From: Bradyrhizobium septentrionale
Lineage (GTDB): Bacteria; Pseudomonadota; Alphaproteobacteria; Rhizobiales; Xanthobacteraceae
Length of the DNA stretch: 64,000 bases
Assembly (NCBI RefSeq): GCF_011516645.4
Contig: NZ_CP088285.1
Coordinates: 5,536,501-5,600,500, forward strand
Direction of reading: 5' to 3'
Shown: positions 9,010-54,315 of the stretch, in pieces
How the letters are laid out: each line of letters begins with the position of its first letter
Numbering within the stretch: the stretch's first letter is position 1
Made by a program: the position numbers and the translations under genes
The notes under the pieces: generated by a model
Told to the model about the DNA's origin: nothing
Seen by the model: only the letters and a program-made list of their open reading frames with translations
The model's database searches: none

Positions 9010-9041
9010 TCTCACCCCGCAACTCCAGAGGAGACTGAACA

Positions 9042-9407
9042 ATGGCACAAAGAATCGCGGGCATCGCCTTCCTGACCGTCGATGGCGATCAGCTGGCGCT
9101 GCGCGGCAACTTCACGGTCAGCCCGTCGCCCGTCGAGCGCACCATGATCGCGGGACAGGACGGCGTGCATGGCTATCAGGAGCTGCCGCGCGTGCGGTAC
9201 ATCGAGGGCGATCTGTCAACCGTCCCCGGCCTGTCGCTGGAGACGCTGCTCGCCGAGACCGATGTCACGGTGGTCGCGCAGCTTGCCAACCGCATGCAGT
9301 ACGTGCTCACCAGCGCGACCTGCAAGGGCGGCTTCGAGAACAACACCCGAGATGGTCAGGTCCGCGTGCGCTGGGAAGGCCTGACGTGTGAGGAGATGGC
9401 CCTGTGA
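9042..9407 (+). CDS. Tail tube protein (Mu gpM-like)
   Basis: A 121-residue beta-rich protein in the standard position after the sheath gene. It begins MAQRIAGIAFLTVDGDQL and carries the 'G..GVHGYQE.P' and 'VRVRWEGLTCEEM' segments typical of the short Mu-type tube subunit, which stacks into the inner tail tube. A GAGGAGA ribosome site precedes the ATG. Its stop overlaps the following ATG/GTG by four bases. Confidence 0.82.
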   Translation: MAQRIAGIAFLTVDGDQLALRGNFTVSPSPVERTMIAGQDGVHGYQELPRVRYIEGDLSTVPGLSLETLLAETDVTVVAQLANRMQYVLTSATCKGGFENNTRDGQVRVRWEGLTCEEMAL

Positions 9408-9838
9408 ACGTCAAGCCGAGACATGAGGGCTTCGTGGACGACAAGCCCGAGCCCGAGATCATCCCGCCGAGCGGCACCAAGCGGGCGGTGCCGCCGCCCG
9501 AGATCGAGCCGTCCCCGGATGAAGTGGGGCCGCTGGAGCAGGATGAGTGGCCCATCATCGTCAAACTGATCTATAAGCCGATCCGCAACAATCGCGGTGA
9601 GGATGTCAGGGAAATCTCGCTGCGCGAGCCGCGAGCTGGTGACATCAACCGCTATGGCAATCCGATCCGCGTCAATCAAGACGGTGATGTGCTGATCGAC
9701 GAGCGCAAGATGTCCTACATGATCGCAGCGCTGTCGGGAGTGCTGCCGCCGTTCATCGAGGAGATGGACCCGCGCGACTGGAACAGCTGCGCCTACCGGC
9801 TGCGGCGTTTTTTTCTTCCCGATCCAGCGGCCTGGTAG
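9404..9838 (+). CDS. Tail assembly chaperone, zero-frame product (Mu gp41-like)
   Basis: The 144-residue zero-frame protein occupies the gp41/G position between tube and tape measure. It has a Pro/Glu-rich N-terminus, then 'IIVKLIYKPIRNNRGE' and 'ISLREPRAGDI.RYG', a pattern seen in phage tail-assembly (E/gp41-type) proteins. Near its end the RNA reads seven consecutive T (9808-9814), after which a -1 shift avoids the stop at 9836-9838. These proteins bind the tape measure during tail assembly and are absent from the virion. Confidence 0.8.
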   Translation: MNVKPRHEGFVDDKPEPEIIPPSGTKRAVPPPEIEPSPDEVGPLEQDEWPIIVKLIYKPIRNNRGEDVREISLREPRAGDINRYGNPIRVNQDGDVLIDERKMSYMIAALSGVLPPFIEEMDPRDWNSCAYRLRRFFLPDPAAW

Positions 9839-10002
9839 GCAGCGAGGAGGAGATCATCCTCGACTGCTACCGCCTGGCACGCTGGTATCACGTCAGCCCT
9901 GAAGTGTTTTTGTCGATGCCGCTGAGCGATGTCTGGTTGCACCTGCATCGCACCGCGCAGATTGACCGCGCGCAGCAGGCAGCAGCAGATGATGATGACT
10001 GA
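9404..10002 (+). CDS. Tail assembly chaperone, -1 frameshift fusion product (gp41-gp42 like)
   Basis: The zero frame reads codons CGT TTT TTT across 9806-9814, giving a T TTT TTT heptamer ideal for simultaneous -1 slippage. Re-reading base 9814 opens a second frame of 62 codons (beginning SSRSSGLVGSEEE and containing LDCYRLARWYHVSPEVF) that ends at TGA 10000-10002, overlapping the tape-measure ATG. The fusion would be 199 residues. This reproduces the G/GT logic of lambda and gp41/gp42 of Mu. The downstream frame has no convincing start of its own. Confidence 0.85.
9808..9814 (+). promoter_or_regulatory. Programmed -1 frameshift slippery site
   Basis: Seven T residues aligned with the reading frame as T TTT TTT. 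Sixteen bases on, GC-rich sequence could pair, but no clear pseudoknot was established by eye. Confidence 0.8.
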
Positions 10003-19782: not shown

Positions 19783-20127
19783 ATGGCCACGGTCAACATC
19801 ACCGTTGCGAACGATGCGGACTTCTTCCGCAGCTTCCTCTATCGCACGCTCAGCGGTGATCCCATCGACCTGACCGGCGCAGCGTTCGTGATGAAGGCGC
19901 GCAGGCATGCGCAGGATGCGACCGCCTTCCTAACGCTCTCGACCGACACCGGAGAGATCGACATCGCCGATGGACCGGGCGGCAGCTTCACCGTGCTGAT
20001 CACGCGCGAGCGGCTGCTGGAGATGACCATCGGCCCCTATGACCAGTCGCTGGTGATGACGCTGAACGGCGTCAAGCAGCAGCTCTGGTCTGGCGTGCTC
20101 ACCGTCAACCCCGGACCATCGCGATGA
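19783..20127 (+). CDS. Hypothetical beta-sandwich phage protein (114 aa)
   Basis: Starts [17 protein letters not shown] and looks like an all-beta domain ([32 protein letters not shown]). Similar small beta proteins sit before fibre genes in many alphaproteobacterial prophages and may be fibre adaptors or BppU-like domains. The stop overlaps the next ATG by four bases. Not recognised further. Confidence 0.6.
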
Positions 20128-22022
20128 ACGACTTTTCGATCACGCAGACGCTGGATGTGACCGGCGAGGTCGAGATCATTCAGGACGATGTTGCGATCAT
20201 CATCTCACCCGATCAGGGCCCGCCTGGAGCGCGCGGCAATTCGGTGCTGAGCGGCACCAGCGATCCCACCAGCTCGCTCGGCGTCGATGGCGACTTCTAC
20301 TACAACGAGGAGACCCATCAATTCTACGGGCCGAAGGAAGGCGGCATCTGGCCTGCGCCTGTGCTCCTGACAGGCCCGCAGGGGCCGCAGGGCGCGCAAG
20401 GCATCCAAGGCCCTGTCGGCCCGGAAGGCCCTGTCGGCCCGACCGGCGCAGCCTCGACAGTGCCGGGGCCGCCGGGGCCGCAGGGCGTGCAGGGCAATAC
20501 CGGCCCGCAAGGCGTGATCGGCAATACCGGCCCGCAAGGCGCGCAGGGCGTGCAAGGGCCGCAGGGCAATCCGGGCGTCGATGGCAACACCGTGCTGTAC
20601 GGCACCGTTGCGCCGACTGCCGGGATCGGCGTCAACGGCAACTTCTACATCAACACCGCAACCAACTTCATCTATGGGCCGAAGGCTGGCGGCGCGTGGC
20701 CGTCAGGCACGTCGCTGGTTGGTCCGCAAGGCCCGCAGGGCGTTCAAGGCGTGCCCGGTGCAGGCAGTCCAGGCACCGCTACGCCGATCATGGCCAGCGT
20801 CGGCGCTGTCGGCGTCTCGGGTAACTTCTCGCGCGAGGATCACGTTCACCCATCCGACACCTCGCGTGTCATCAAGGCGGGCGACCGAATGACCGGCGCG
20901 CTGCGCGTCGGCTCAGTGCGACCTGCACCGGCCTACCCCGCGTCTGTCGGCAGCTATTCAATGTCGATTGATGCCAGCTTGGGGTTCAATGTCTTCGTGA
21001 GCGCCGATGGCTCGCAATGGTTAGCGCAGAGCGCCGGTTATGGTGTCGCGATCATTGATGATCCACCGACAGGCAATCTGAATTTCTTTGCGTCACCCGC
21101 TTCGGTCGCCGCTGGCGGTCTGATGACGCTGAATACGACCGCGACGCTGACGCAGCAGGGCCAGTGGCAGCCGAAGTCGATTGCCATGACCGGCGACAAT
21201 GGTTTCGGTGCCATCACGCTTTACCGCACAGGCGGCGTGACCTACGGAACGCTTGGCGTCGATGCGAGCGGCTACAACATCAATCTGAGCGCTGGCACGA
21301 TCCCGATCAACATCTGCTTCTCTGGCATCGTCAGGGCGGTTTTTGCAAGTTCCGGTGGGCTGTCGATCAACCAACCGAACGCCACCAATATAACAGCGTT
21401 GAGCGTCATCGGCGCAACCGCAAGCTATGCCGCCGACTGTCGAGCCAATGGGCCGGGCTTCGCCGGGGTCGTCGGATGGGCGAACGGCACCAGCCTGTAC
21501 GGCATGAGCGGCGAGAACCTGTCCGGCACCACTTATTCGTTCTACGGCAACACTGGCGCCTTCCTTGCCGCAGGCGCTTGGCAAACATCGGATGCCCGCG
21601 TCAAGAGCGTCACCAGACAGACTGATCCCGCTGCCGCGCTCGCCATCGTCAATGCGCTGCCGGTGAATGAATTCACGCCAGCGAACCCAGCGGCGCGCGA
21701 GATGTTTTTCGGGCGCGCTGATGTCGCCAACGAAACGCTGTACGGCTGGAATGCACAGGATGTCCAACTGCTCGTGCCGATTGCCGTTCGCGACATCGGC
21801 GTCCCGGTTGTGGACCGTGTGATGCGCGCGGCGCTCAAGCACATCGACATCCCGGAGCTGGACAGCAAGGAAGCCGAAGCGCTCGGCGAAGAGGAGATGT
21901 CGATCAAGGCGATCAACGACCGCTACATGCTGACGACACTGTGGTCGGCGGTGCAGCGGCTATCGACGCAGAACGATGAGTTGCGCGCGGAGATCGACGC
22001 GCTGAAAGCAGCAAGCTCATGA
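20124..22022 (+). CDS. Collagen-like tail fibre with S74 endosialidase-type chaperone
   Basis: Residues about 30-230 alternate collagen-like GPQG.QG tracts with two copies of a small domain ([22 protein letters not shown] and [21 protein letters not shown]). A beta region follows. The C-terminal 140 residues form an intramolecular chaperone of the peptidase S74 type: SDARVK start, 'YGWNAQDVQ' and '[10 protein letters not shown]', then a coiled coil. S74 domains trimerise the fibre and then cut themselves off at the Ser. This is the last gene of the late operon, directly before a terminator. Confidence 0.85.
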
Positions 22023-29995: not shown

Positions 29996-32900
29996 ATGGA
30001 TTTCCCCTCGATCAAGTGGGTGCGTGAACAATCGGACAGCACGGGCCCGCAAGAGAGTTCACCCGCGGCGCCGTCCGCAGATGCGGCGACCTTTGAGCGG
30101 CAACTGAGCGAGATCGCCAATTCAAGTGGAGGTGGTGGAGCAATGCCCGCCGCCGCTGCGCTGCAGCCGGCTCAGTCAGCTGGGGTTTTGATAGGGCGGA
30201 GCAAGCAGCCTCTTTATTCCGAGGACGCTCGCCTTATTTCGGGGCTTGAGGAGGTCCTCCTCCGCAATGGCAACGCCGCCTACAAAACCGCCTCCAGCTA
30301 TGTAGGTTCTCTTCGCAGCTTCGGCCGCTGGCTCTTCGAAAATAACAAAGATCCGATTGCTGCTCGGCTCGACGACCAGTCGCTGACCGATGATGCGCGC
30401 GAGGCCATCGAAAAGGGTCATAACAGGAGACTCCGTCCGGCAATAGACCATCTCCGGACCGTCCAGTCGACGGGCGAAGTCGCGCCGATCACAGGCCGCG
30501 CTGAGCTAAATCCTCACCCTCAGGACGTGGCTCTCATCAAAGAGTACAAAAACGAAGCAGCGACAAGGACCAGCAAGATTTATGCAGGTTTTCTTCGCAG
30601 TTTCAGTGACTACCTGCGTGAAAACAACAAGAAGGGCATTGCTGCTCGGCTTTCCGGCAACACGTTGGATGAAGATGTTAAGCGCTATAGGAAGGACGCC
30701 GGGGGTAATCGGCGTATCGGTGCCGCGCTGGCCGATCTCCGAAAATCGCAGGCCGGCGCTAAAGCGATGGAGTTCGAGCGCCATATTTCCCCCGTTCCTG
30801 ATCTCGAAGACGCGGTACTGATGGAGCCGTGGCGCGTCGGCGACGCCGCTGCGCAGCACAGCGCGTCGCAGGACGCGGGCAGTCGGCCATTGGTCCTCCC
30901 GGAAGGCTACGATCAGGATTTGCTTTGGGAGCTGATGGACGAACCCGGCCCGTCGTCATCTCTCGAGCCAGCCGCGCGCCATGACCAGTCATCGGATCAT
31001 CCCGGAGAGACCATTCGTCCCTTGAACTGGGGCTACGACCGCCAGCAGTTCCTGGACGAGCCGATGGCTGCACTTGCCAGGAGCAACCTCCTGCCAAGCG
31101 AGGAGGTCCTCATCAACGATGAGCATGACACAGCTGAGTTGCGGCCAGCGAAGAGGCCGAGGACCCTAGACAATCTGCACGGCCTTGCCGGCGAGCGGCA
31201 GCTGAGCGAGATCGCCAATTCAAATGGAGGTGGTGGAGCAATGCCGGCCGCCTCGGCGCTGCAGCCGGCTCAGTCAGCTGGGGTTTTGATAGGGCGGAGC
31301 ATGGAGCCTCTTTATTCCGAGGACGCTCGCCTTATTTCGGGGCTTGAGGAGGCCCTCCGCAATGGCAACGCCGCCAACCAAACCGCCTACGGCTATGTAT
31401 ATTCTCTTCGCAGCTTCAGCCGCTGGCTCTTCGCAAATAACAAAGATCCGATTGCTGCTCGGCTCGACGACCAGTCGCTGACCGATGATGCGCGCGAGGC
31501 CATCGAAAAGGGTCATCACAGGAACCTCCGTCCGGCAATAGGCCATCTCCGGACCGTCCAGTCGACGGGCGGAGTCGCGCCGATCACAGGCCGCGCTGAC
31601 CTAAATCCTCACCCCCAGGACGTGGCTCTCATCAAAGAGTACAAAAACGAAGCAGCGACAAGGACCAGCAAGATTTATGCAGGTTTTCTTCGCAGTTTCA
31701 GTGACTACCTGCGTGAAAACAACAAGAAGGGCATTGCTGCTCGGCTTTCCGGCAACACGTTGAATGAAGATGTTAAGCGCTATAGGGACGCCGGGGGTAA
31801 TCGGAATATCGGTGCCGCACTGGCTGATCTCCGAAAATCGCAGGCCGGCGCTAAAGCGATGGAGTTCGAGCGCCATATTTCCCCCGTTCCTGATCTCGAA
31901 GACGCGGTACTGATGGAGCCGTGGCGCGTCGGCGACGCCGCTGCGCAGCACAGCGCGTCGCAGGACGCGGGCAGTCGGCCATTGGTCCTCCCGGAAGGCT
32001 ACGATCAGGATTTGCTTTGGGAGCTGATGGACGAACCCGGCCCGTCGTCATCTCTCGAGCCAGCCGCGCGCCATGACCAGTCATCGGATCATCCCGGAGA
32101 GACCATTCGTCCCTTGAACTGGGGCTACGACCGCCAGCCGTTCCTGGACAAGCCGATGGCTGCACTTGCCAGGAGCAACCTCCTGCCAAGCGAGGAGGTC
32201 CTCATCAACGATGAGCATGACACAGCTGAGTTGCGGCCAGCGAAGAGGCCGAGGACCCTAGACAATCTGCACGGCCTTGCCGGCGAGCGGCAGCTGAGCG
32301 AGATCGCCAATTCAAATGGAGGTGGTGGAGCAATGCCGGCCGCCTCGGCGCTGCAGCCGGCTCAGTCAGCTGGGGTTTTGATAGGGCGGAGCATGGAGCC
32401 TCTTTATTCCGAGGACGCTCGCCTTATTTCGGGGCTTGAGGAGGCCCTCCGCAATGGCAACGCCGCCAACCAAACCGCCTACGCCTATGTAAGTTCTCTT
32501 CGCAGCTTTGGCCGCTGGCTCTTCGCAAATAACAAAGATCCGATTGCTGCTCGGCTCGACGACCAGTCGCTGACCGATGATGCGCGCGAGGCCATCGAAA
32601 AGGGTCATAACAGGAGACTCCGTCCGGCAATAGACCATCTCCGGACCTTCCAGTCGACGGGCGGAGTCGGGCCGATCACAGGCCGCGCTGAGCTAAATCC
32701 TCCCCCCCAGGACGTGGCTCTCATCGAAGAGTACAAAAACGAAGCAGCGACAGGGACCAGCAAGACGTATGCAGTTGCTCTACGCAGTTTCAGTGACTAC
32801 CTGCGTGAAAACAACAAGAAGGGCATTGCTGGTCGGCTTTCCGGCAACACGTTGGATGAAGATGTTAAGCGCTATAGGAAGGACGCCGGGGGTAATCGGC

Positions 32901-35005
32901 GTATCGGTGCCGCGCTGGCCGATCTCCGAAAATCGCAGGCCGGCGCTAAAGCGATGGAGTTCGAGCGCCATATTTCCCCCGTTCCTGATCCCGAAGACGC
33001 GGCACTGATGGAGCCGATGCCCGTCGGCGGCGCCGCTGCGCAGCACAGCGCGTCGCAGGACGCGGGCAGTTGGCCAAAGGAGCGGCTTCCTGCAGAAGGC
33101 TACGATCAGGATTTGCTTTTGGGGCTGATGGACGAACCCGGCCCGTCGTCATCTCTCGAGCCAGCCGCGCGCCATGACCAGTCATCGGATCCCGGAGAGA
33201 CCATTCGTCCCTTGAACTGGGGCTACGACCACCGCCAGCCGTTCCTGGACGAGCCGATGGCTGCACTTGCCAGGAGCAACCTCCTGCCAAGCGAGGAGGT
33301 CCTCATCAACGATGAGCATGACACAGCTGAGTTGCGGCCAGCGAAGAGGCCGAGGACCCTAGACAATCTGCACGGCCTTGCCGGCGAGCGGCAGCTGAGC
33401 GAGATCGCCAATTCAGGCGGTCGCCTGCTGACGTCGGTGGCCCCCACCCATCAACAGGGTGCATCGCCATGGCAGGCGCAGCCGATGATGCAGGCGAGCG
33501 GGCACGAAGATGCCACGGCGCCGCATGCGGTCGCGACGTACGTCGGAGGCGCCCCTGCGCACAGCGCGCCGCAGGGAGGTTACGATCAGGATCTGCGTTT
33601 GATGGTGGAAGACGGCCCACCGTGGTCCGGGGTTCCCCCTGAGCAGGCGCAGGAGATAGTCCAAGCTCGAGAGCAGGAACCTGCCAGGTCCACCTCAACC
33701 TGGTCGCCGCAGATGCCGCTCAACTTTGATTGGAGTATGTGGCCGACCCTGGAAGCAGCGTCAGCGCACTCTGCCAGGGCTCCTTCAGACATCGAAGGCG
33801 GTCTTGAGGCAGCGGTTCATCCGAATCCGCCCGCACCGTTCGAGTTGCGTGACAATGCTTGGAGCCCGGCGCCTGACTTTCCGCCGCCGTTTGCCGGGCC
33901 AGTACCGGGTCATCACCAGGGCGTTCGACAGCCCGGCTCGCCGCAGGGGCTTTCTCCGGCGCCAGCCTTCTCGGATGATGAAGCTTTGGCGTGGTTGCGC
34001 GAGGAGCTGGCGCGGCGGCAGATGCAAGAGCCGGCCTCACCATCAACCAGCAGGGCTCCGTCAGACACCTACGGCGGTCTTGAGTCTTTTGTTGATCTGG
34101 ATGCGCCCACGTCGTCCGAATTGCGCGACGATGCTCACTTTGCGCCGGCGCCCGCTGCCAAGTCTCGCTCAGACACCTACGGCGGTCTTGAGTCTTTTGT
34201 TGATCTGGATGCGCCCCCGCCGTCCGAATTGCGCGACGATGCTCACTTTGAGCCGGCGCCCGCTGCCAGGTCTCGCTCAGACACCTACCGTGGTTTTCCA
34301 TTGGTTGATCTGACTGCGCCCACGCCGTCCGAACCACGCGACGATGCTAATTCTGTACGGCCGTTTCCGAGCACCTCCGCTGATGCTCAGATCGGGGCTT
34401 TAGGTCCGACAGCCTCCTCCCACGGCCGCGGGCTGGTGCTCGAGGACACGGAATGGCTGGGCGACGAGCATATCGACAGGGATTACCGGCTCCAGGAGCA
34501 GGATTTGCAGAGGTACCATCCGGATCTCGCCGCCCGGACGCGGTTCGTGAATCCCCTCATCGTCCTAAATTATCTGCGCTCTAACGACGATGGCGTCGTG
34601 CGAACCGAATTCCAGCGCATCGTCTACGATAATGGTAACGATACAGCCGACTTCCTGTTCCTGCCCGTGATTAATGCCGATCCTCAAGATCCTAATAGCC
34701 TCGGCAACCATTGGTCGCTGCTGTTCGTTGATCGCAGAGACCGGGGGCGGCCGGTCGCCTATCACTACGATTCCTACGGGGGACTCAACCACAAGGATGC
34801 AGAACATCTCGCAGGTCGGCTGGACCTCCGCCTGGAGCCAGCCGGCATGGCCCGGCAGCGGAACGGGTATGATTGCGGCGTCTTCGTGGTGGACGGGACG
34901 CGGGCGCTGGTTAGGCAATTGGAGCAAGGACGGGAACCAGACCTGCTGAACCTCAGCAACCTCGTTGCCAATCGGCAGGCACTGCAGAACCGACTCAGGG
35001 GCTGA
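29996..35005 (+). CDS. nopD: NopD/Bel2-5-like type III effector with C48 SUMO-protease domain
   Basis: ATG follows AAGGGAGAAGGG. The 1669-residue protein has a polar Ser/Pro-rich N-terminus as in type III signals; three near-identical units of about 365 residues (starting near 34, 400 and 764); a Pro/Ala-rich middle with short repeats (SDTYGGLESFVDLDAP); and a C-terminal Ulp1/C48 protease. Catalytic residues visible are His1572 (GNHWSLLFVD), Asp1592 (HYDSYGG), Gln1621 and Cys1627 (RQRNGYDCGVFVV). Each unit ends with PAKRPRTLD, a nuclear-localisation-like motif, and LDLRLE near residue 1605 resembles an EAR motif. The protein would be injected into legume cells, enter the nucleus and cleave SUMO conjugates. 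No secretion genes lie in the window. Confidence 0.85.
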   Translation: MDFPSIKWVREQSDSTGPQESSPAAPSADAATFERQLSEIANSSGGGGAMPAAAALQPAQSAGVLIGRSKQPLYSEDARLISGLEEVLLRNGNAAYKTASSYVGSLRSFGRWLFENNKDPIAARLDDQSLTDDAREAIEKGHNRRLRPAIDHLRTVQSTGEVAPITGRAELNPHPQDVALIKEYKNEAATRTSKIYAGFLRSFSDYLRENNKKGIAARLSGNTLDEDVKRYRKDAGGNRRIGAALADLRKSQAGAKAMEFERHISPVPDLEDAVLMEPWRVGDAAAQHSASQDAGSRPLVLPEGYDQDLLWELMDEPGPSSSLEPAARHDQSSDHPGETIRPLNWGYDRQQFLDEPMAALARSNLLPSEEVLINDEHDTAELRPAKRPRTLDNLHGLAGERQLSEIANSNGGGGAMPAASALQPAQSAGVLIGRSMEPLYSEDARLISGLEEALRNGNAANQTAYGYVYSLRSFSRWLFANNKDPIAARLDDQSLTDDAREAIEKGHHRNLRPAIGHLRTVQSTGGVAPITGRADLNPHPQDVALIKEYKNEAATRTSKIYAGFLRSFSDYLRENNKKGIAARLSGNTLNEDVKRYRDAGGNRNIGAALADLRKSQAGAKAMEFERHISPVPDLEDAVLMEPWRVGDAAAQHSASQDAGSRPLVLPEGYDQDLLWELMDEPGPSSSLEPAARHDQSSDHPGETIRPLNWGYDRQPFLDKPMAALARSNLLPSEEVLINDEHDTAELRPAKRPRTLDNLHGLAGERQLSEIANSNGGGGAMPAASALQPAQSAGVLIGRSMEPLYSEDARLISGLEEALRNGNAANQTAYAYVSSLRSFGRWLFANNKDPIAARLDDQSLTDDAREAIEKGHNRRLRPAIDHLRTFQSTGGVGPITGRAELNPPPQDVALIEEYKNEAATGTSKTYAVALRSFSDYLRENNKKGIAGRLSGNTLDEDVKRYRKDAGGNRRIGAALADLRKSQAGAKAMEFERHISPVPDPEDAALMEPMPVGGAAAQHSASQDAGSWPKERLPAEGYDQDLLLGLMDEPGPSSSLEPAARHDQSSDPGETIRPLNWGYDHRQPFLDEPMAALARSNLLPSEEVLINDEHDTAELRPAKRPRTLDNLHGLAGERQLSEIANSGGRLLTSVAPTHQQGASPWQAQPMMQASGHEDATAPHAVATYVGGAPAHSAPQGGYDQDLRLMVEDGPPWSGVPPEQAQEIVQAREQEPARSTSTWSPQMPLNFDWSMWPTLEAASAHSARAPSDIEGGLEAAVHPNPPAPFELRDNAWSPAPDFPPPFAGPVPGHHQGVRQPGSPQGLSPAPAFSDDEALAWLREELARRQMQEPASPSTSRAPSDTYGGLESFVDLDAPTSSELRDDAHFAPAPAAKSRSDTYGGLESFVDLDAPPPSELRDDAHFEPAPAARSRSDTYRGFPLVDLTAPTPSEPRDDANSVRPFPSTSADAQIGALGPTASSHGRGLVLEDTEWLGDEHIDRDYRLQEQDLQRYHPDLAARTRFVNPLIVLNYLRSNDDGVVRTEFQRIVYDNGNDTADFLFLPVINADPQDPNSLGNHWSLLFVDRRDRGRPVAYHYDSYGGLNHKDAEHLAGRLDLRLEPAGMARQRNGYDCGVFVVDGTRALVRQLEQGREPDLLNLSNLVANRQALQNRLRG
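30095..33385 (+). repeat. Three tandem ~1.1-kb repeats inside the effector gene
   Basis: Units start at 30095, 31193 and 32285 (1098, 1092 and 1101 bases); a fourth begins at 33386 but diverges after about 30 bases. All length differences are multiples of three. Each unit encodes two related helical modules (DARLISGLEEAL...SLRSF..WL...NK and DVALIKEYKNEA...LRSFSDYLRENNKK), a linker, an acidic segment and PAKRPRTLD. Long stretches are identical at silent positions. Confidence 0.95.
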
Positions 35006-44602: not shown

Positions 44603-44686
44603 ATGAGTTCGCGCAACGTTTCTCTCGACGATCGCGGACAATTCCGCCATCTTACAACCAGCAATGGAATGTCGGTGGGGGTCTAG
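44603..44686 (+). CDS. Possible 27-residue leader peptide before the ATPase
   Basis: ATG preceded by GAGGAAAG; reads MSSRNVSLDDRGQFRHLTTS and ends with TAG overlapping the ATPase GTG. It may be a coupled leader or the tail of a gene cut off by the IS1182 insertion 11 bases upstream. Confidence 0.3.
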   Translation: MSSRNVSLDDRGQFRHLTTSNGMSVGV

Positions 44687-45544
44687 TGGTTGACCAAAAG
44701 AAGCTCGCTAAATTGCGTCAGCTGATAACTGAGGGTTTACGTGTCCAGTTGGGGCACGAGGCCATTACTTACATTAACGTCGGGCACGCGATGGAGGATA
44801 TTAGCGCAAGGCAAAATCACACCGTCTTTGCTCGGCGCGGTTGTGGAAAGACGCTATTGCTTCATGATTCTGCGAAGCAGCTTCCGCCAGAGATCAAAGC
44901 AATCTATCTGAATTGTGAGGATTTCAAACAGCACACATTTCCAAATGTCCTGATCGAAATCCTGTCGTCCTTGTTCGAAGAAATCGATTCCCATCTTTCC
45001 GGTTGGTTCGGTAGGAAGAGGAGAACCAAGGAAATCATCAAGAGTATCCGCGCCAAACTGGCGACGATGCACCAGTCACCAGATGTTCAAGAGGAAGATA
45101 TCAGACAGACGACTGCTAATGAGAATGCGTTGAATAGTGAGGCCGGACTTCATGCGGAAGCTGTGAACTTCTCACTTGGAGGCTCTAGGAAGACAAAAAG
45201 CGAAACCGAACGATCGTTCAGGAGCCACCGTCAAAAACTACAAGAATTAGACCTCTGGCTGCCCGAGCTGAAGAAAAGCATCCGAGAATTTTTTGCTGTC
45301 TCGACGAACGTCAAATGCATTTTCTTGCAGATCGATGATCTTTATCATCTAAAGCGAGCCGACCAAGCCTTTGTTGTCGACTACATCCATAGGCTCTGCA
45401 AGGACGTGCCGCTGTTTTTTAAGATCGCTACAATGCGGCATGCCTCGACAATGTTTGCGGATCGAGAAGGGCAGCCTATAGGTGCGCAGGAGCGTCACGA
45501 CTATCAGCCGATAAACATTGACTATACGTTCAGCGATTTTGGCA
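44686..45544 (+). pseudogene. AAA ATPase (ORC/CDC6-like), N-terminal part, split by IS66
   Basis: GTG start. Residues 45-55 contain the P-loop (ARRGCGKTLLL) and a Walker B-like CIFLQIDDLYHL lies near 210. A charged helical region fills 85-185. The native frame runs to ...INIDYTFSDFG at 45544, where an IS66 element begins; the 8-base target copy TTTTGGCA is 45537-45544. The rest of the gene resumes at 51296. Reassembled, the protein would be 509 residues. The family often sits in defence or mobile contexts, but its job here is unknown. Confidence 0.8.
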
Positions 45545-45602
45545 GTATCCGTCCGAGGGCGGCCGTCTTGCGAGTTTTTCCGATCTGTAGCTGACTGTCC
45601 TT

Positions 45603-45998
45603 ATGGACGGACATAAGGACAGTGCGGTGCTGAGCCGCATGGATTTGGTGGAGACCGGTCGGCGGCGACGCTGGACGCGTGCGGAGAAGCTCAGAATCGT
45701 AGAGGAGAGCTTCTCGGGGCCACGACTGGTGTCGGCGACGGCTCGCCGGTATGGGATATCACGTCAGCTTCTGCTGAGCTGGCGCAAGGCTTGGACCTGT
45801 CATGATCCGGCCGAAGAGGATTCGATCGGCCCGACATTCGTCCCTGCGATAGTTGCGGCAAGTACGCCGCCAACGACGGAAGCTGTCGAGACAGGTCAGA
45901 TCGAAATCGTGAGCCCTCAGGGGCTGCGCGTGGTCTTCGGCCCCGGTGCGGATATCGAGGCGGTCGTTCGAATTGCTCGGGGCCTGGCGCGCCGATGA
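45603..45998 (+). CDS. tnpA: IS66 TnpA (outer element)
   Basis: A 131-residue helix-turn-helix protein: RRRRWTRAEKLRIVEESF, SATARRYGISRQLLLSWRKA, then a C-terminal domain with IEIVSPQGLRVVFGPGAD. Required with TnpB and TnpC for IS66 transposition. Its end overlaps tnpB by four bases. Confidence 0.88.
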   Translation: MDGHKDSAVLSRMDLVETGRRRRWTRAEKLRIVEESFSGPRLVSATARRYGISRQLLLSWRKAWTCHDPAEEDSIGPTFVPAIVAASTPPTTEAVETGQIEIVSPQGLRVVFGPGADIEAVVRIARGLARR

Positions 45999-46342
45999 TC
46001 CCGATCCCGACGGGCGTGCGGGTGTGGCTGGCGACGGGCCATACCGACATGCGGTGCGGCTTTCCGAGCCTGGCTCTGCGCGTGCAGGAAGTGCTCAAGC
46101 GCGACGCCATGGGCGGCGGTCTTTTCTGCTTCCGGGGCAAACGCGGTGATCTATTGAAGGTCATTTGGCACGATGGCCAGGGCGCCTGCTTGTTCACCAA
46201 AAGACTCGAGAGAGGCAGGTTCATCTGGCCATCGGTTGCTGGTGAATCGGTAACGATCTCTCCGGCGCAGTTGAGCTATCTGTTGTCCGGGATCGATTGG
46301 CGCAACCCTCAAGAAACCCAGCGTCCGACGCGGGTCGGATAG
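45995..46342 (+). CDS. tnpB: IS66 TnpB (outer element)
   Basis: The 115-residue product has the IS66 Orf2 hallmark: GVRVWLATGHTDMRCGFPSL, GGGLFCFRGKRGDLLKVIWH, DGQGACLFTKRLERGRFIWP, and a C-terminal LS.LLSGIDWR. Intact. Accessory transposition protein, mechanism unclear. Confidence 0.9.
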   Translation: MIPIPTGVRVWLATGHTDMRCGFPSLALRVQEVLKRDAMGGGLFCFRGKRGDLLKVIWHDGQGACLFTKRLERGRFIWPSVAGESVTISPAQLSYLLSGIDWRNPQETQRPTRVG

Positions 46343-46388
46343 TCGTTTTACGGTTTGAATCTGCTGCTCGATCTGATTCAATGGCTCC

Positions 46389-46611
46389 ATGATATCGAAG
46401 CCGGATGATCTTCCATCGGACCTTGTCAGTGCCCTGGCGGCGCTGCAGGCCGAGCGTGAGGCGCGACAGAAAGCCGAGGCGAAGGCCGCCAACTGGCAGG
46501 CGCAAGCCGCGAATGCGCAGGCGAAACTGTCGGATACCGAGGCGCTGATCGCTCATCTCGAGTTGCGCATCGAGAAGCTGAAACGCGAACTGCACGGGCA
46601 GCGATCCGAGC
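46389..46611 (+). pseudogene. tnpC: IS66 TnpC (outer element), N-terminal piece
   Basis: Begins MISKPDDLPSDLVSALAALQ and contains the leucine-zipper-like 'LIAHLELRIEKLKRELHGQRSE' region. The frame is cut at 46611, the end of the target copy ATCCGAGC (46604-46611). The reading frame resumes without shift at 49753 (joined codon CGC). The complete protein would be 557 residues. Confidence 0.88.
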
Positions 46612-46674
46612 GTGAGCGTCATGCGGAGACCACGCGCTGAGGGTTGATCTGGTCGGCTAGGAAGATCTCGCGGA

Positions 46675-47139
46675 ATGGTTTGTCGCGAGGTCACAATGTC
46701 AAAGGATAGTCGTAAGGATAGCGATAAGGATAGGCATATGCCTATCCTCGAACACGGCGCCGACACGCTGCAGCGTGTCGAGATCATCACCGGGACGGGC
46801 CGACGTCGGCGCTGGTCGACCGATGCGAAGGCGGCGATTGTTGCGGAGAGTTTTGCGCCGGGTGCAAGCGTGTCCGCAGTGGCGCGGCGACACGACATCA
46901 GTCCAAGCCTGTTGTTTCTCTGGCGTCGCCAGGCTACGCGGGCGCAGGTCGCGGAGCGCGGGGACAGAGGCATGCCACCTGGCTTTGTGCCGGTCGCGAT
47001 CACCGGCTGTGGGCGCCCGAGTGAGGAGCAGGCGGCGATCGAGATCGAGGTCGGCGCGATTCGCATCCGTGTCAGGGGGACAGTCGACCGGGAGGCACTG
47101 TGCGAGGTGCTGGCGGCGGTCGGGACGGTTGGTCGATGA
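46675..47139 (+). CDS. tnpA: IS66 TnpA (inner element)
   Basis: The likely start is the ATG at 46696 (MSKDSRKDSDKDRH) or upstream ATG 46675. HTH region: RRRRWSTDAKAAIVAESFAP, VARRHDISPSLLFLWRRQ; C-terminal IEIEVGAIRIRVRGTVDREA. The end overlaps tnpB by four bases. Intact. Confidence 0.88.
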   Translation: MVCREVTMSKDSRKDSDKDRHMPILEHGADTLQRVEIITGTGRRRRWSTDAKAAIVAESFAPGASVSAVARRHDISPSLLFLWRRQATRAQVAERGDRGMPPGFVPVAITGCGRPSEEQAAIEIEVGAIRIRVRGTVDREALCEVLAAVGTVGR

Positions 47140-47486
47140 TCGGGCTTCGAGCTGGGTTGTCGATCTGGATTGCGACGCAGCCGGTCGATTTCCGCCGCGG
47201 CATGGACTCGCTGGCGATGCTGGTGAGCGAGGCCTTTGGAGCCGATCCGTTCGACGGCGGACTTTATGTCTTCCGCTCCAAGCGCCGAGATCGCGTGAAG
47301 ATCCTGACTTGGGATGGAAGCGGCCTTGTCCTTTACTACAAAAGAATCGAGGGGCAGTTCACCTGGCCGCCGATCAAGGAAGGCGTCATGTCGCTATCTC
47401 ATGCTCAGCTCTCGGTGCTGCTCGATGGCTCGGACTGGAAGCGTGTGCCGATGCGAGTTGTGGATCAGCCGATGCGAGCTGGTTGA
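47136..47486 (+). CDS. tnpB: IS66 TnpB (inner element)
   Basis: Starts MIGLRAGLSIWIATQPVDFR and shows RRGMDSLAMLVSEAFGADPF, GGLYVFRSKRRDRVKILTWD, GSGLVLYYKRIEGQFTWPP and LSVLLDGSDWKRV. Complete Orf2 of IS66. The ATG overlaps the tnpA stop. Confidence 0.92.
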   Translation: MIGLRAGLSIWIATQPVDFRRGMDSLAMLVSEAFGADPFDGGLYVFRSKRRDRVKILTWDGSGLVLYYKRIEGQFTWPPIKEGVMSLSHAQLSVLLDGSDWKRVPMRVVDQPMRAG

Positions 47487-47540
47487 TCATTATCAAGAGT
47501 CGTTCGTCACTCATGCGGAGTTGTTGTAGAATCGCTCTGC

Positions 47541-49169
47541 ATGAGTGATTTGCCTTCCGATCCAGCATTGCTCCGACAAGCCGTGATGACGCTATCGTCA
47601 CGGCTTGCGGCGTTGTCGGAGGAATGCAGCACGCTGGCGACCGAGCGTGATGCAGCGATCGCCCAACGCGACGCTGCGATCCAGGAGAACGACAAGCTCC
47701 TGATGATCCTGTCCCAGTACAAGCGCACGATCTTCGGTCCGCGCTCCGAGACACTGGATATCGGACAGCTGTCTCTCTTCACCATCAGGGCACAGGCGGT
47801 TCGTGCCGCCGCCAACGACGACGTGACCGGAGGCAGGCTGCCTGACGGAGCGGAGGGCCGTGGAAAGCGACCGGCGCGACGCAACCGGGGGAAGCTTCCG
47901 GAGCATTTGCCGCGCATCGATGTCGTGATCGATATCGAGAGCCACATCTGCCCTTGCTGCGGCGAGCAGCTGCACAAGATCGGGGAGACCGTCAAGGAAG
48001 CCTTCGACGTCATTCCGATGCAGTACCGGGTCAAGCGCATCATGCGTCCACGGTACGGCTGCCGGGGATGCCGCCAGGGTGTTCTGCAGGCACCCGCGCC
48101 GGCCCAGGCGATCGACGGTGGAATGGTGACGGAAGCCTTGCTGGCCCACGTCGCGGTGATGAAATACGGCTACCAGCTGCCGCTGTATCGCCAGGAACAG
48201 ATGTTTGCCGCCCAAGGCATCACGCTCGACCGGCAAACGCTGGCCTCGTGGATGGGCCGCGTCGCCTGGTGGCTGAAGCCGCTTCACGCGCTGTTGCGCC
48301 GCGCAGTGATGTCCTACCCGCGGCTGTTTGCCGACGAGACGCCGCTGCCAGTTCTCGATCCCGGCCGTGGCAGAACCAAAGTCTGCCAGTTCTGGGCGAT
48401 CGCCACCGACGACCGCCCGTGGGGCGGCCCGGCGCCGCCGGCAGTAGTCTACGTGTTCGCCGAGGATCGCAAGGCAATCCGCGCCAGGCAGCTGTTTGGA
48501 GACTACGACGGCATCCTGCAGGTCGACGGCTACGCCGGGTACAAGGGGCTGATTAAAAACGGCGGCCGTCTGGTACAACTGGCGTTCTGCTTCGCGCATG
48601 CGCGGCGGAAGTTCTGGGACGTCCACATCGCGACGAAATCGCCGATTGCCGCGGAAGCGCTGCAGCGGATCGCGATGTTCTACGCCATTGAGGATCGCAT
48701 TCGCGGTTTGCCGGCGACGCAGCGAGCTGCGGTGCGACAATCCGACACCAGACCGCTGATCGAGGACTTCAAGCCCTGGCTCGAGGCGCGACTGCTGGAA
48801 GTCTCGAAGAAATCCGGCCTTGGCAAGGCGATCCGCTACACCCTCAACCATTGGGATGGCCTGACGCGATTCATCGATGATGGGCGCATCGAGATCGACA
48901 GCAATACGGTCGAACGCAGCATCAAGCCGATCGGGCTGGGAAAGAAAAACTATCTGTTCGCAGGCAGTGAGGGCGGCGCCGAAACCTGGGCCACTCTCGC
49001 ATCACTCATCAACTCCGCAAAGCTTCACGACATCGACCCACGGCACTATTTTACTGATGTTCTCGAGCGCATCGTCTCCGGACGTACCAAGATCAATCAG
49101 CTGAACACGCTGCTGCCGTGGAATTGGAAAGCCGAGCGCGATGGTTCGGAGCCAAAGCTCGCCGCTTGA
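47541..49169 (+). CDS. tnpC: IS66 TnpC transposase (inner element)
   Basis: Intact 542-residue transposase with N-terminal coiled coil (SSRLAALSEECSTLATERDA), zinc-finger-like CPCCGEQLHKIGE, catalytic core segments (LFADETPLPVLDPGRGRTK, LQVDGYAGYKGLIKN, AFCFAHARRKFWDVH) and the DNA-binding C-terminus (RIEIDSNTVERSIKPIGLGK, KNYLFAGSEGGAETWA). Should support transposition. Confidence 0.94.
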   Translation: MSDLPSDPALLRQAVMTLSSRLAALSEECSTLATERDAAIAQRDAAIQENDKLLMILSQYKRTIFGPRSETLDIGQLSLFTIRAQAVRAAANDDVTGGRLPDGAEGRGKRPARRNRGKLPEHLPRIDVVIDIESHICPCCGEQLHKIGETVKEAFDVIPMQYRVKRIMRPRYGCRGCRQGVLQAPAPAQAIDGGMVTEALLAHVAVMKYGYQLPLYRQEQMFAAQGITLDRQTLASWMGRVAWWLKPLHALLRRAVMSYPRLFADETPLPVLDPGRGRTKVCQFWAIATDDRPWGGPAPPAVVYVFAEDRKAIRARQLFGDYDGILQVDGYAGYKGLIKNGGRLVQLAFCFAHARRKFWDVHIATKSPIAAEALQRIAMFYAIEDRIRGLPATQRAAVRQSDTRPLIEDFKPWLEARLLEVSKKSGLGKAIRYTLNHWDGLTRFIDDGRIEIDSNTVERSIKPIGLGKKNYLFAGSEGGAETWATLASLINSAKLHDIDPRHYFTDVLERIVSGRTKINQLNTLLPWNWKAERDGSEPKLAA

Positions 49170-49607
49170 TCAGTTCGACGGCACGGCGTCGGGAACTTCC
49201 TGCGCATCGCTGGCGTCGTCGTAGATCTCTTCGCGGATCACGCGCAGCGTTACCTCGTGCAGATACACTTGCAGCGCACCCTCCAGCTCGGTGAACTCGG
49301 GCAGCAGGACTCGATCAACGAAGCCCCGTGACGCACGGACCATCACCGTGTTACGTCGCTGTCGGCGATAACGAAACGGCCGCAGCCCATATCGGCGGCA
49401 AAGCGCCAGAAACAGGTGCCGAGACCACTGGTCGGGAAGTGAGAATTGCTGTTCGATCGGTGGATCGTGGCGAGCAAGTTCCTCGACCCGGGCCCGCACC
49501 CGCTGCAGCGCGGCTTCCGCTGCAAGGCGCTCACCAGCAGTTCCGGCCCCCACGAACAACGCCTCGATCTTCCGAAGCTTCTCGCGCAGCTGCGACTCGC
49601 TGGTCAT
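49170..49607 (-). CDS. IS66 passenger protein, DUF2786/DUF7168-like
   Basis: Converges on tnpC and lies wholly inside the inner element. The N-terminus (LREKLRKIEALFVGAGTAGE, RLAAEAALQRVRARVEEL) fits the DUF2786 helix pair; the middle (QFSLPDQWSRHLFLALCRRY, GLRPFRYRRQRRNTVMVRAS) looks like the associated C-terminal domain; the C-terminus is acidic. Function unknown. IS66 elements normally carry only tnpABC, so this is cargo. Confidence 0.7.
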   Translation of the reverse strand: MTSESQLREKLRKIEALFVGAGTAGERLAAEAALQRVRARVEELARHDPPIEQQFSLPDQWSRHLFLALCRRYGLRPFRYRRQRRNTVMVRASRGFVDRVLLPEFTELEGALQVYLHEVTLRVIREEIYDDASDAQEVPDAVPSN

Positions 49608-49752
49608 TCTGATCCCCGTTGCCCGCTCCGAACCGGGATCAACCCATCACCGCGCGCCGGCGGCGTCAATCATCCCGACCGCGCTATCCAGAGCATTCCG
49701 CGCAAGTCAAGCCCAGGCACCCGTGATCCTCTCGTGACGCTCACATCCGAGC

Positions 49753-51203
49753 GCTCGGCACGGCTGCTCGAGCAGTTGGAGTTGGAGCTCGAAGAACTCG
49801 TCACCACGGCGAGCGAGGATGAGCTTGCCGCACAGGCCGCAGCGGCGAAGACGCAGAACGTCCGCCCCTTCATGCGCAAGCGGCCGGTGCGCAAGCCATG
49901 GCCTGACGATATCGAACGCGAGCGCGTCGTCATTGAGACTCCAACGACCTGCGCCTGCTGCGGTGGATCGCGGCTGGCGAAGATCGGTGAGGATGTGACC
50001 AAGACGCTGGAGGAGATCCCGCGCCGCTTCAAGCTGATCGAGACGGTACGCGAGAAGTTCACCTGCCGCGATTGCGAGAAGATCAGCCAGCCGCCCGCGC
50101 CGTTCCATGCCACGCCGCGCGGCTTCATCGGCCCACAATTGCTGGCGACGATCCTGTTCGACAAGTTCGGCATGCATATCCCGCTCAACCGCCAGAGTGC
50201 GCGCTTTAAGGCCGAGGGGATCGACCTGCCGTTGTCGACGCTGGCCGACCAGGTCGGCCACGGGACCTTCGCCGTCATGCCGCTCTTCCACTTGATCGAA
50301 CGCCACGTGCTCGCTGCCGAGCGCCTTCATGGCGACGACACCACCATCCGTATTCTGGCGAAGGGCAAGTGCACGACCGGGCGGATCTGGACTTATGTGC
50401 GGGATGACCGGCCGTTCGCCGGGCCTGCGCCGCCGGCAGCGGTCTATTACGCCTCGAGCGACCGACGAGGCGAGCATCCACAGAGACATCTGGCCGCCTT
50501 CGCCGGCATCTTGCAGGCGGATTGCTACAGCGGCTTCGAGCCGCTGTTCGACCCGCAGAAGAAGGCGCTGCCGATTACGCCGGCGTTTTGCGTGGCCCAT
50601 GCGCGGCGGGGCTTCTTCGAGCTGGCTGATATCGAGAAAAATGCTCGGGAAGGCAAGAAAGGCAAACCGGTCTCCCCGATCGCGCTGGAGGCTGTCAGAC
50701 GCCTCGATACGTTGTTCGAGATCGAGCGCGCCATCAACGGCCGCGGTGCCGGCGAGCGGCGTGCCGCTCGCCAGGAACAGAGTAAGTCACTTCTCGAGGA
50801 CATGCATGCCTGGCTGCTCCGCGAGCGCGAAACCCTCTCGCGTTCCTCCGAGGTCCTGAAGCCGATTAACTACATGCTCAGGCGCTGGGACGGCTTCGCC
50901 CGCTTCCTCGACGACGGCAGGATCTGCTTGACCAACAATTGCGCTGAGCGCGCATTGAGAGGCATCGCCTTGGGAAGGCGCAACTGGACCTTCGCCGGCA
51001 GCCAACGCGGCGCCGACCGTGCCGCCATCATGCTGACGATGATCACGACCTGTCGCCTCAACGACGTCGATCCCAAGGCCTGGCTCGCCGACGTCCTGGC
51101 CCGTATCGCCGATCATCCCGCATCGCGTCTGCACGAGCTCTTGCCCTGGGAATGGAAGCTCCTGCGCCAGGCCGACAAGCCAGCCAATCAGCAGGCCGCC
51201 TGA
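49753..51203 (+). pseudogene. tnpC: IS66 TnpC (outer element), C-terminal piece
   Basis: In phase with 46389-46611. Contains SARLLEQLELELEELVTTA, the zinc ligands CACCGGSRLAKIGEDV and CRDCEK, LHGDDTTIRILAKGKCTTGR, LQADCYSGFEPLFDP, AFCVAHARRGFFELADI and RICLTNNCAERALRGIALG with the family C-terminus. All catalytic regions are present; only the insertion breaks the gene. Confidence 0.9.
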
Positions 51204-51295
51204 CCTTCACCCTTCACCCAATGCCATCATAGACCTCGCCGTGCCCGCGCGCATGCGTCAATCAGGCGGCCTCCGTCGTATGCGTACTTTTGGCA

Positions 51296-51966
51296 GAACG
51301 GAATCCCAGAATTGGCAAATCCTGATGGAGTACGGCCGACGAGCTGGGATGGATAAGCATGAGCTAGATGCTCTGTTTAAGGGTGAAGGCTTCGCCCGGC
51401 TGGTGATGGCTGGCGGTGGCGTTCCCCGCGACGTGCTTTCCCTCTTTTTGGAAGCAATGAGCCAAAGCGAGGGTGAGGCAGTTGGAAAAGACGAGGTGCG
51501 CGTTCTCAGTAGATCGAATCTGGAGCGGCGAATTGAGGAGCTAAAGCAAGATTCGCAAATCGACGAACAAAACGTCTTGATTGCCGGTATCTATGTTTTA
51601 AGGGAGTTCTGCTTAGCAAAAAAAACGAACATCTTTCTAATACCCGAGCAACTGCTCCAGCAGGACGAGAACTGGAGAACGCTTTTCAGCCGCCTCGTTG
51701 ACTATCGCATCATCCATCAAGCCGGAAGCGCTCTCACGCACAAATCACAGACAGGAAACTTCCAAGCATTTGCGATCGATATTGGCTGCTACGCCCATTT
51801 CAGAAAGATGGAGGCCCGCTTCAACGAGATCGACGTTTCGAAGGCTACTGCAAAGGATCAAATGCGTTCCGCTCCGGTGTTGGGCTTGAGTGACCTCCAA
51901 ACACTATTTAAGACAGTACCAGAAAACGCCGAGGCCGTTTTGAAAACGATACCGGAGGATGACTGA
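51296..51966 (+). pseudogene. AAA ATPase (ORC/CDC6-like), C-terminal part
   Basis: After 45544 the codon is completed as AGA and the frame continues TESQNWQILMEYGRRAGMDK, FARLVMAGGGVPRDVLSLFL, a winged-helix-like region and SDLQTLFKTVPENAEAVLKT. The GG.PRD segment is typical of sensor-2-type regions in ORC/CDC6-like ATPases. This piece now lacks a start of its own; the ATG-like frame upstream lies in IS66 DNA. Confidence 0.8.
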
Positions 51967-52128: not shown

Positions 52129-53115
52129 CTATCGCAGAAGTTGATGGATACGATCCTGAAGAGTCCCATCGGGCGCCGGTCCAATCTGGCGAGTGGCGTC
52201 GTAAGGTTTAATCGCGGCTTCCTCGACCTTCTCCGCATCCGGTACCAAATGTTCCAGCGCGCGAAGGGCGTCAAGCCCGGGTTGAAGGGTGAAAAGGAAG
52301 CGTTGCGCGACCTGCCGAACGAGCCTCGCGTTTGCCGGGTTGCCAGTTAGACCATCGGCAATGTCGCGGATATCCCGTCGCAGCGCAGCTAAGCTGTTAT
52401 AGAATTGAACCAGACGCAACGGGGCATCTTTGCCCAGTAACCCCAGCTCGCCCGAGGCGTTGGCAAATATCGTTGGTTCTGCCGGTGCAAAGCTCCGCAG
52501 TTCATGTTTTTCCAAGGTAGTGCCTTGCGCACTCGCTGGCCAATACTGACGCCACTTGTTCTCCGAATCGAAGCAGCATCTCGCGACTAGATCGGCCAGC
52601 TCAGCGTGAAGCGCACGCGCAAGGTCAGGCATAGTGGACCTCCGGAGGACGTCTCGTATTTCATAATCCTCCATCGGCACGGCATGGAGTTCAAAGCGCT
52701 TGTAGTATTTCTTGTCCGGGGCTTGGTGAGGGCCGGTCAAGGTCGGCTCGACGGAAACGACAAATCCGTGGCCTTTGTCGCTCAACGGAATCCGCTGAAC
52801 GCTCACGCGGTCAATGCGAGGCTGGATTTTGGAGTTCAGGATTTGGATAATCCACTCTCGCGTGATCTTGTCATCCACCACACCATCATCGACCTTGGCT
52901 GGCTTGCAGGTCTTCTTGTCCTCTTCAATTCCATAAACGATCTGCCCTCCGGCCGAGTTGGCCATAGCTGACACATCTTTGCACAGCTCGTGTACGTCCT
53001 TACTGTTTCGCGATAGCGCGGGCGATGCCTTGTATTCGAGGGTAAGTGTTTCTTCGATCCGCGCATCAACCATCTTCTGGAAGTCGGCGCGATCGTTGAA
53101 TTCGAAATCAGCCAT
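52129..53115 (-). CDS. AlbA_2 (Schlafen-like) domain protein
   Basis: The 328-residue protein starts MADFEFNDRADFQKMVDARI. Residues 20-130 fit the AlbA_2/divergent AAA-4 domain: E.LTLEYKAS, LCKDVSAMANSAGGQIVYGI, 'FVVSVEPTLTGPHQAPDKKY'. This is the Schlafen core, found in nucleases and transcription factors and often in phage-defence loci. The C-terminal 150 residues are helical and unrecognised. It converges on the broken ATPase gene. Confidence 0.75.
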   Translation of the reverse strand: MADFEFNDRADFQKMVDARIEETLTLEYKASPALSRNSKDVHELCKDVSAMANSAGGQIVYGIEEDKKTCKPAKVDDGVVDDKITREWIIQILNSKIQPRIDRVSVQRIPLSDKGHGFVVSVEPTLTGPHQAPDKKYYKRFELHAVPMEDYEIRDVLRRSTMPDLARALHAELADLVARCCFDSENKWRQYWPASAQGTTLEKHELRSFAPAEPTIFANASGELGLLGKDAPLRLVQFYNSLAALRRDIRDIADGLTGNPANARLVRQVAQRFLFTLQPGLDALRALEHLVPDAEKVEEAAIKPYDATRQIGPAPDGTLQDRIHQLLR

Positions 53116-53227: not shown

Positions 53228-53545
53228 TCAGGCGAACAGGTCCTTTCCAGCCTGAGTCATCCGGGTGAAGGTCCCGCTCTCATGGACCGGCTCCAGCCAA
53301 CCATGAACGATCGCATACTTGAGACCGGCGCTGTATTCAGCCACGGAGGCCTTGTCCTCGAATAGGAAGGGGTTGTTTAACTTCTCAATATAAATCCGGC
53401 CGTCCCGCACCGGCTCGAAGGCGCGGGCGTGCTCCATCAGGCGGCGCGCCGCCTTCTCGGGATCGGCGTAGCGGCGGTCTTCGGCCAATTTTTTCATGTT
53501 GTGCAGGTTGGGTCGATCATCCAGGATGTAGACTATTTCCACCAT
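53228..53545 (-). CDS. Hypothetical protein with a C-terminal winged-helix-like segment (105 aa)
   Basis: Start MVEIVYILDDRPNLHNMKKL at 53545 overlaps the upstream DUF2971 gene by 13 bases, indicating one operon. The C-terminal half (VAEYSAGLKYAIVHGWLEPV, then ESGTFTRMTQAGKDLFA) looks like a small winged-helix: helix, helix, wing. A partial paralogue lies at 36678-36929. Function unknown. Confidence 0.6.
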   Translation of the reverse strand: MVEIVYILDDRPNLHNMKKLAEDRRYADPEKAARRLMEHARAFEPVRDGRIYIEKLNNPFLFEDKASVAEYSAGLKYAIVHGWLEPVHESGTFTRMTQAGKDLFA

Positions 53546-54315
53546 GGTTTGATCTCGCGCGGGTCCGGGATCGTATCCTCGTCCGGAACGAGCTTGAAGT
53601 AGTTGTCGGCAAGGCGCGCCTTGCAAACGTCAGCGCTCGGATACATTTTCTTGGTCGTCTCTTTGACCTTTTCCCAGTTTAGGTGGCAGGTTTGTCCAAC
53701 AATTACTTGAGCGAGGCGCAGATTTTTGTCGAAATCAAGAAAATGCAGATGTCCTTCCTGTTTCGCATCGGAAAGCGCTACGATCCGGCGAAATTCATCC
53801 TCGTATTTCCAACTTGAGAATTTCGTCGTCAGCAATTGATCGATGAGAGCTTCGCTTGGGCTCGCCAAATGAGCGGAGTTGATTTTCCCTTGAAGCCGAT
53901 CCGTCATGTAGTCAATCTGCCGCAGCATCCCCCTCGGGATATCAACTCCGAGACAAATGCCTCGATTGCGATCACCGTAATGCGCCCAGAGTGCGGGATC
54001 AGTCCAATCAGCGCTGAAGCATATCAACCCTAATGTCGCGTCGAGCCGATCTTTCAGGTCGAGAAGCTGCCGCTTCACAACGTGGCCCAAAGCACCATGA
54101 CACAGTACCTCAAATGGATCATTGAGCGTCGATAGTCGTGAGACCTTGATTCGGCCAAAGACAATGTTGCTCAGCCCATATTCGGCTGAAGTCAAATAGT
54201 AGACTCGCCGATACTCTATTGGCGGAGGCGGGACAACAGCAGCGCTCCCGGCGTGCTTACTGTATCCCGCGTCGATCCAGAGCTGACGAAATTGCTCGTT
54301 GTAATGGCGCGCCAT
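53533..54315 (-). CDS. DUF2971-domain protein
   Basis: The 260-residue protein has the DUF2971 signature: RVYYLTSAEYGLSNI, IKVSRLSTLNDPFEVLCHG, LGLICFSADWTDPALWAHYG, NRGICLGVDIP. The family is soluble, of unknown activity, and is often seen near defence or mobile genes. It is the first gene of the two-gene minus-strand operon. Confidence 0.82.
   Translation of the reverse strand: MARHYNEQFRQLWIDAGYSKHAGSAAVVPPPPIEYRRVYYLTSAEYGLSNIVFGRIKVSRLSTLNDPFEVLCHGALGHVVKRQLLDLKDRLDATLGLICFSADWTDPALWAHYGDRNRGICLGVDIPRGMLRQIDYMTDRLQGKINSAHLASPSEALIDQLLTTKFSSWKYEDEFRRIVALSDAKQEGHLHFLDFDKNLRLAQVIVGQTCHLNWEKVKETTKKMYPSADVCKARLADNYFKLVPDEDTIPDPREIKPWWK

Follow-up and report, generated by a model that had tools for sequence, protein, structure and literature searches.

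A rare ORC/CDC6-like ATPase gene of Bradyrhizobium septentrionale interrupted by two nested IS66-type elements

Results and discussion

A gene interrupted at two levels

The window (the whole stretch of 64,000 nucleotides analyzed here, C2:5536501-5600500 of a 10.4-Mb Bradyrhizobium septentrionale genome with 4 contigs) contains an AAA+ ATPase gene that is split by an IS66-type element, which is itself split within its tnpC gene by a second, different IS66-type element. It is highly probable, in our judgement, that events took the order that best explains the locus as a whole: an ATPase gene, then insertion of the outer element, then insertion of the inner one. This order follows from the exact duplication around each element, from a listed protein that is intact and from sister copies of the elements that are identical. 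The features are listed below in coordinates of the window.

44686..45544, + strand: ATPase gene, 5' part; 859 nt, encoding residues 1-286 plus the first base of codon 287
45537..45544, unstranded: target duplication of the outer element TTTTGGCA, left copy, exact
45545..51287, + strand: outer IS66-type element; 2602 bp of its own, 5743 bp in all once the inner element is counted
45603..45998, + strand: outer element tnpA, 131 aa; NF047595, 87.1 bits (cutoff 74)
45995..46342, + strand: outer element tnpB, 115 aa; PF05717, and NF033819 above cutoff
46389..46611, + strand: outer element tnpC, 5' part; 74 codons and one base
46604..46611, unstranded: target duplication of the inner element ATCCGAGC, left copy, exact
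46612..49744, + strand: inner IS66-type element; 3133 bp, within tnpC of the outer element
46675..47139, + strand: inner element tnpA, 154 aa as listed (putative start); NF047595, 95.1 bits (cutoff 74)
47100..47486, + strand: inner element tnpB, 128 aa as listed (putative start); NF033819, 116.1 bits (cutoff 50)
47541..49169, + strand: inner element tnpC, 542 aa, unbroken; PF03050, and NF033517 with 442 bits (cutoff 180)
49170..49607, - strand: inner element 145-aa frame, on the strand opposite to the tnp genes
49745..49752, unstranded: target duplication of the inner element ATCCGAGC, right copy, exact
49753..51203, + strand: outer element tnpC, 3' part; joined product 557 aa
51288..51295, unstranded: target duplication of the outer element TTTTGGCA, right copy, exact
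51296..51966, + strand: ATPase gene, 3' part; last two bases of codon 287, then 222 C-terminal residues and the stop codon

All four 8-mers lie exactly where a first-pass annotation of this DNA had placed them. With equal base frequencies, arithmetic puts the chance that 8 bp agree between two given places at about 1.5e-5. The outer element's own DNA comprises 45545-46611 and 49753-51287, and its tips (GTATCCGTCCGAGG and, reverse-complemented, GTACGCATACGACGG) are imperfect inverted repeats that have GTA in common at the tip and GGCCG more inward. The tips of the inner element (GTGAGCGTCATGCGG and, reverse-complemented, GTGAGCGTCACGAGA) begin with 10 identical bases. Both element ends are the ends of real elements, given that 23 of the 25 other places of the outer element compared from this genome carry their own exact 8-bp duplication. 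When the outer element and one target copy are removed in silico (45544 joined to 51296) the predicted 509-residue frame is indeed obtained, and removal of the inner element restores an outer tnpC of 557 residues, as had also been proposed; both joined frames are open. Element plus duplication is divisible by three at each level (2610, 3141 and 5751 bp). An exact duplication with flanks free of indels always restores the frame, so frame restoration is a sign of clean insertion and does not provide a date.

Both elements show the traits of the IS66 family that were looked at: a TnpC-type DDE transposase, accessory TnpA and TnpB encoded upstream, target duplications (8 bp being a feature of the family) and terminal inverted repeats. 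The 585-aa frame at 49446-51200, which lies over the 3' part of the outer tnpC, matches PF03050, PF13817, PF13005 and PF13007 in Pfam as well as NF033517 (432 bits, cutoff 180), and the junction in the outer tnpC is spanned by uninterrupted full-length copies of the outer element. For the 145-aa frame of the inner element no family match was obtained in Pfam, NCBIfam, PADLOC or PHROGs; in two relatives of this element on plasmids, a hypothetical protein of equal length (WP_166202962.1) is annotated at the corresponding place.

The interrupted ATPase

The joined ATPase contains the P-loop GCGKT at residues 52-56 and a conserved DD at 217-218, an acidic Walker B-like motif. Both are located in the 5' part and are invariant in 60 aligned sequences (among the 120 listed of 1136 matches). 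The first-pass annotation had called the protein an ORC/CDC6-like ATPase, which agrees with the scores of 30 and 29 bits for PF24389 (ORC-CDC6-like; gathering cutoff 27) in a partial match restricted to residues 209-284 and to profile positions 215-287 of 571. An AAA+ fold is predicted with a mean pLDDT of 79.4, and in this predicted structure the insertion point, codon 287, falls in a helix (285-302) just after the ATPase core. Two frames remain of the gene, one of 302 codons that contains the core and one of 241 codons for what follows; the 3' part, severed from the core, is matched by protein search at C2:5587786-5588463 (residues 284-509). The insertion would have cost the ATPase its function.

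The joined protein was translated and searched for homologues across the junction. At E <= 1e-3 this yielded 1136 matches (7985 candidates scored), the best 120 of which cover 75-100% of the query, so that each of these 120 listed homologues crosses residue 287. The joined sequence equals the listed protein P0001 letter for letter at residues 2-509, residue 1 being M for the GTG start, and the seven homologues ranking after it are 84-88% identical (among the matches listed). P0001 is encoded on a contig of 9,880,762 bp and the contig of the window measures 9,800,371 bp; since the contigs differ in size and the window has no 509-codon frame at this site, P0001 is very likely from another record, that is, from a near strain or another assembly. 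An uninterrupted allele thus very likely exists elsewhere, as judged from the protein sequence. The search for this allele was successful at the protein level, and the empty site was not found as DNA: among the 265 genomes of the genus that were searched, none but that of the window has the ATPase gene at such identity.

The gene is rare. A protein search found relatives of the ATPase in 8 of 265 genus genomes (E <= 1e-15), and in the taxonomic order in 4 of 397 genomes, that of the window included (E <= 1e-20). Close relatives (>=61% identity) occur in two of the 265, namely the genome of the window and B. cytisi (G024); the six further genomes contain relatives that are 24-28% identical, in open frames of 533-549 codons. 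A scan of the genome contigs returned 4 loci, that of B. cytisi (L041) among them. Three close copies were seen as DNA in the genus and all are damaged: the one in the window, a second copy in the same genome (C2:5180592-5181376; L044, L085 and L103) and the one of B. cytisi. The second copy aligns in two pieces (81-82% and 73-76% identity) and has one TAG stop and a frame break; its N-terminal part was not found. In B. cytisi there is an internal deletion, with residues 1-142 and 449-502 found. Since P0001, P0003, P0007 and P0021 in the protein collection are uninterrupted, the gene is not broken everywhere. Plasmids searched at the protein level yielded no relatives, where near records were possibly left out. 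An essential role is unlikely because close copies are present in only 2 of 265 genus genomes, and the ATPase is best described as a rare accessory ORC/CDC6-like protein.

Possible function of the ATPase

ORC/CDC6-type AAA+ ATPases are present in BREX defence systems (excerpt of PMC12839542). Together with the top Foldseek row for the ATPase model, the anti-phage protein Avs3 (8dgc_A, E 3.2e-6, TM-score by query 0.32), this makes a defence role thinkable, and the family searches lend it no support. RdrA of the RADAR defence system (8hrb_A) ranks fourth; the Foldseek rows also include ORC, HslU and clamp loaders, and TM-scores by query length do not exceed 0.34 (50 rows, among the matches listed). 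VIA-align rows comprise ORC/Cdc6, CED-4, Dark and plant NLR proteins. As defence, ORC, HslU, clamp-loader and NLR folds all occur in the structure lists, no function follows from them.

Several candidate assignments were tried and rejected. In PADLOC the 5' part had no more than weak matches (E 0.0077 and 0.0089). Of the NCBIfam models, the anti-phage protein DS41_1 (NF053860) scored 17.4 bits against a cutoff of 370, and ATPase_Sll1717 (NF047389) reached 30.5 bits against a cutoff of 75. No match was found in PHROGs, nor among solved structures searched by sequence at E up to 1, and the literature searched for the term PF24389 contained no mention of it.

Other genes of the window were recorded as well. 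Next to the ATPase site lies a gene with an SLFN_AlbA_2 domain (52129-53115, - strand), and at 53533-54315 (- strand) there is a gene with DUF2971 that matches the PADLOC candidate PDC-S31 (E 8.6e-21). Contractile-tail prophage genes (sheath, an amidase-domain protein and a tail-fibre-like protein) are located at 7441-12401 and 20124-22022. A 1669-aa frame (29996-35005, + strand) has an Ulp1-type Peptidase_C48 domain close to its end and resembles the NopD-type effectors that rhizobia secrete.

Copies of the two elements and the order of insertion

With the left part of the outer element as query, 42 matches were obtained (40 of 130 first-look candidates were scored, hence a lower bound): that of the window, 25 over the whole query, one split copy (two rows) and 14 at 69-83% identity. 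The comparison covers the 25 whole-query places and leaves out the split copy and the distant matches. Fourteen of the 25 are identical over 2602 bp, two have one difference, one has 6 differences and a gap, one has 17 differences, six are at 95.3% and one is a partial copy of 1463 bp. Exact 8-bp duplications flank 23, the other two lacking matching ones. The corresponding search with the left part of the inner element gave 27 matches (40 of 110 candidates scored, again a lower bound), consisting of that of the window, 7 over the whole query, a copy that an outer element divides (two rows) and 17 weaker ones. All 7 whole-query copies are identical over 3133 bp; five have exact duplications and two have no matching ones.

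Two other interrupted copies were seen in this genome. By the match rows, roughly 2.7 kb of other DNA divides an outer-type copy at its positions 644-651 (C2:4830299-4834077), a place for which the first 1089 bases of the inner element, used as query, had no listed match. At C2:8904903-8907504 (L047) the nest is reversed, an outer-type element identical over 2602 bp being placed in an inner-type element at 890-898.

Being situated within the outer element, the inner one arrived later, provided that the nest did not move as one piece. Such a move would mean that the nest was formed elsewhere and entered the ATPase gene as a 5.7-kb unit with the inner element already inside. Nested units can persist, as nests of the same two elements in other Bradyrhizobium plasmids indicate (the nested stretch matches 120 listed plasmid records, 55 of them from Bradyrhizobium). 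However, the plasmid nests use other positions: at the six loci examined of the 120 matching records, the inner element lies in the outer one at about 2378 in three, the outer in the inner one at 2054-2061 in one, and two have no nest. Moreover, the outer-inner junction of the window occurs once, in 1 of 265 genus genomes (<=1 mismatch), and of the 25 other outer places 24 align unbroken over 2602-2603 bp and hence have no inner element, the 25th being the partial copy. We therefore regard transfer of a ready-made nest as very improbable, and the order that had been proposed earlier (ATPase, outer element, inner element) agrees with these counts. Least probable of all is an assembly artefact by wrong joining at long identical repeats. 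Such repeats are a hazard for assembly, and the genome (used here as assembled) has at least 14 other identical copies of the 2602-bp element and 7 of the 3133-bp one. Yet matching 8-bp duplications at two levels, and flanks that together spell out a listed protein exactly, are not what a wrong join would be expected to yield.

In three of the plasmids (L027, L028 and L029) the outer element is, besides carrying the inner one at about 2378, also split near 625-631, by DNA annotated as a group II intron maturase.

Under successive insertion, a 2602-bp IS66-type element would have transposed into a rare ATPase gene, accessory to a Bradyrhizobium-like genome, and duplicated 8 bp at codon 287, where the ATPase core gives way to the C-terminal helical part. 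Afterwards the different 3133-bp element would have entered tnpC of this outer copy and generated its own 8-bp duplication. From then on the outer copy in the ATPase gene could presumably not supply its own intact TnpC, while uninterrupted copies elsewhere in the genome could. Both insertions are probably recent on an evolutionary scale, which we infer from the identical copies of the elements and the listed intact protein; gene conversion may account for some of the identity between copies. Recency had also been claimed in the first-pass annotation, on account of the precise frames. The claim stands by virtue of copy identity, whereas the step from frames to age does not.

A possible inversion between inner copies

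Two identical inner copies, at C2:642509-645641 (+ strand, L077) and C2:5146080-5149212 (- strand, L072), have swapped 8-bp duplications, GCTTCTTC and GAGGCGCT. When their flanks are exchanged, one join is a 397-codon open frame. This exchanged join, taken as 298 bp, is continuous over 285-298 bases in 6 other genomes of the 265 (79-88% identity), and its halves are 4.5 Mb apart in the genome of the window. The other exchanged join, whose product looks to us like IstB, has an open frame of 275 codons, and its unexchanged counterpart at one copy has one of 278 codons; being open both ways it decides nothing. Recombination between the inverted copies, producing an inversion of about 4.5 Mb, explains the swapped duplications, or else they stem from a wrong assembly join at the identical 3.1-kb repeats.

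A wider scenario, which we consider conceivable though rather doubtful, is that one recent burst of both IS66-type elements disabled a rare, possibly defence-type STAND/AAA+ ATPase and, by recombination between two inner copies, inverted the roughly 4.5 Mb of chromosome, and that each element may preferentially insert into the other.

Comparison with known systems

Compared with PF24389 ORC-CDC6-like ATPases, the interrupted protein is matched at residues 209-284 only and shows no link to replication. Both elements resemble the IS66 family in the order tnpA, tnpB, tnpC and in their 8-bp target duplications; the inner element differs by its additional 145-aa frame on the opposite strand. The nested insertion leaves the understanding of IS66 elements and of the ATPase family unchanged. 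Its value is that of a well-resolved case of insertion sequences making pseudogenes in IS-rich soybean rhizobia, and it could serve as a strain marker.

Among literature titles, none on a nested IS66 insertion in Bradyrhizobium was found. Excerpts of published work describe 384 to 622 predicted insertion sequences and 434 to 726 pseudogenes in strains of B. septentrionale and B. quebecense, with symbiosis clusters that are inverted and fragmented, and count highly reiterated sequence strains such as NK6 among the IS-rich Bradyrhizobium (PMC8374602). Strains with 410 and 560 insertion sequences are described in a further excerpt, as are consecutive duplicates of IS66 elements (PMC10127595). Plasmids of the IS-rich B. 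septentrionale and B. quebecense carry elements near-identical to the two in the window. The nested insertion fits this published picture of IS-rich, pseudogene-rich Bradyrhizobium and is a fresh example of ordinary insertion-sequence activity.
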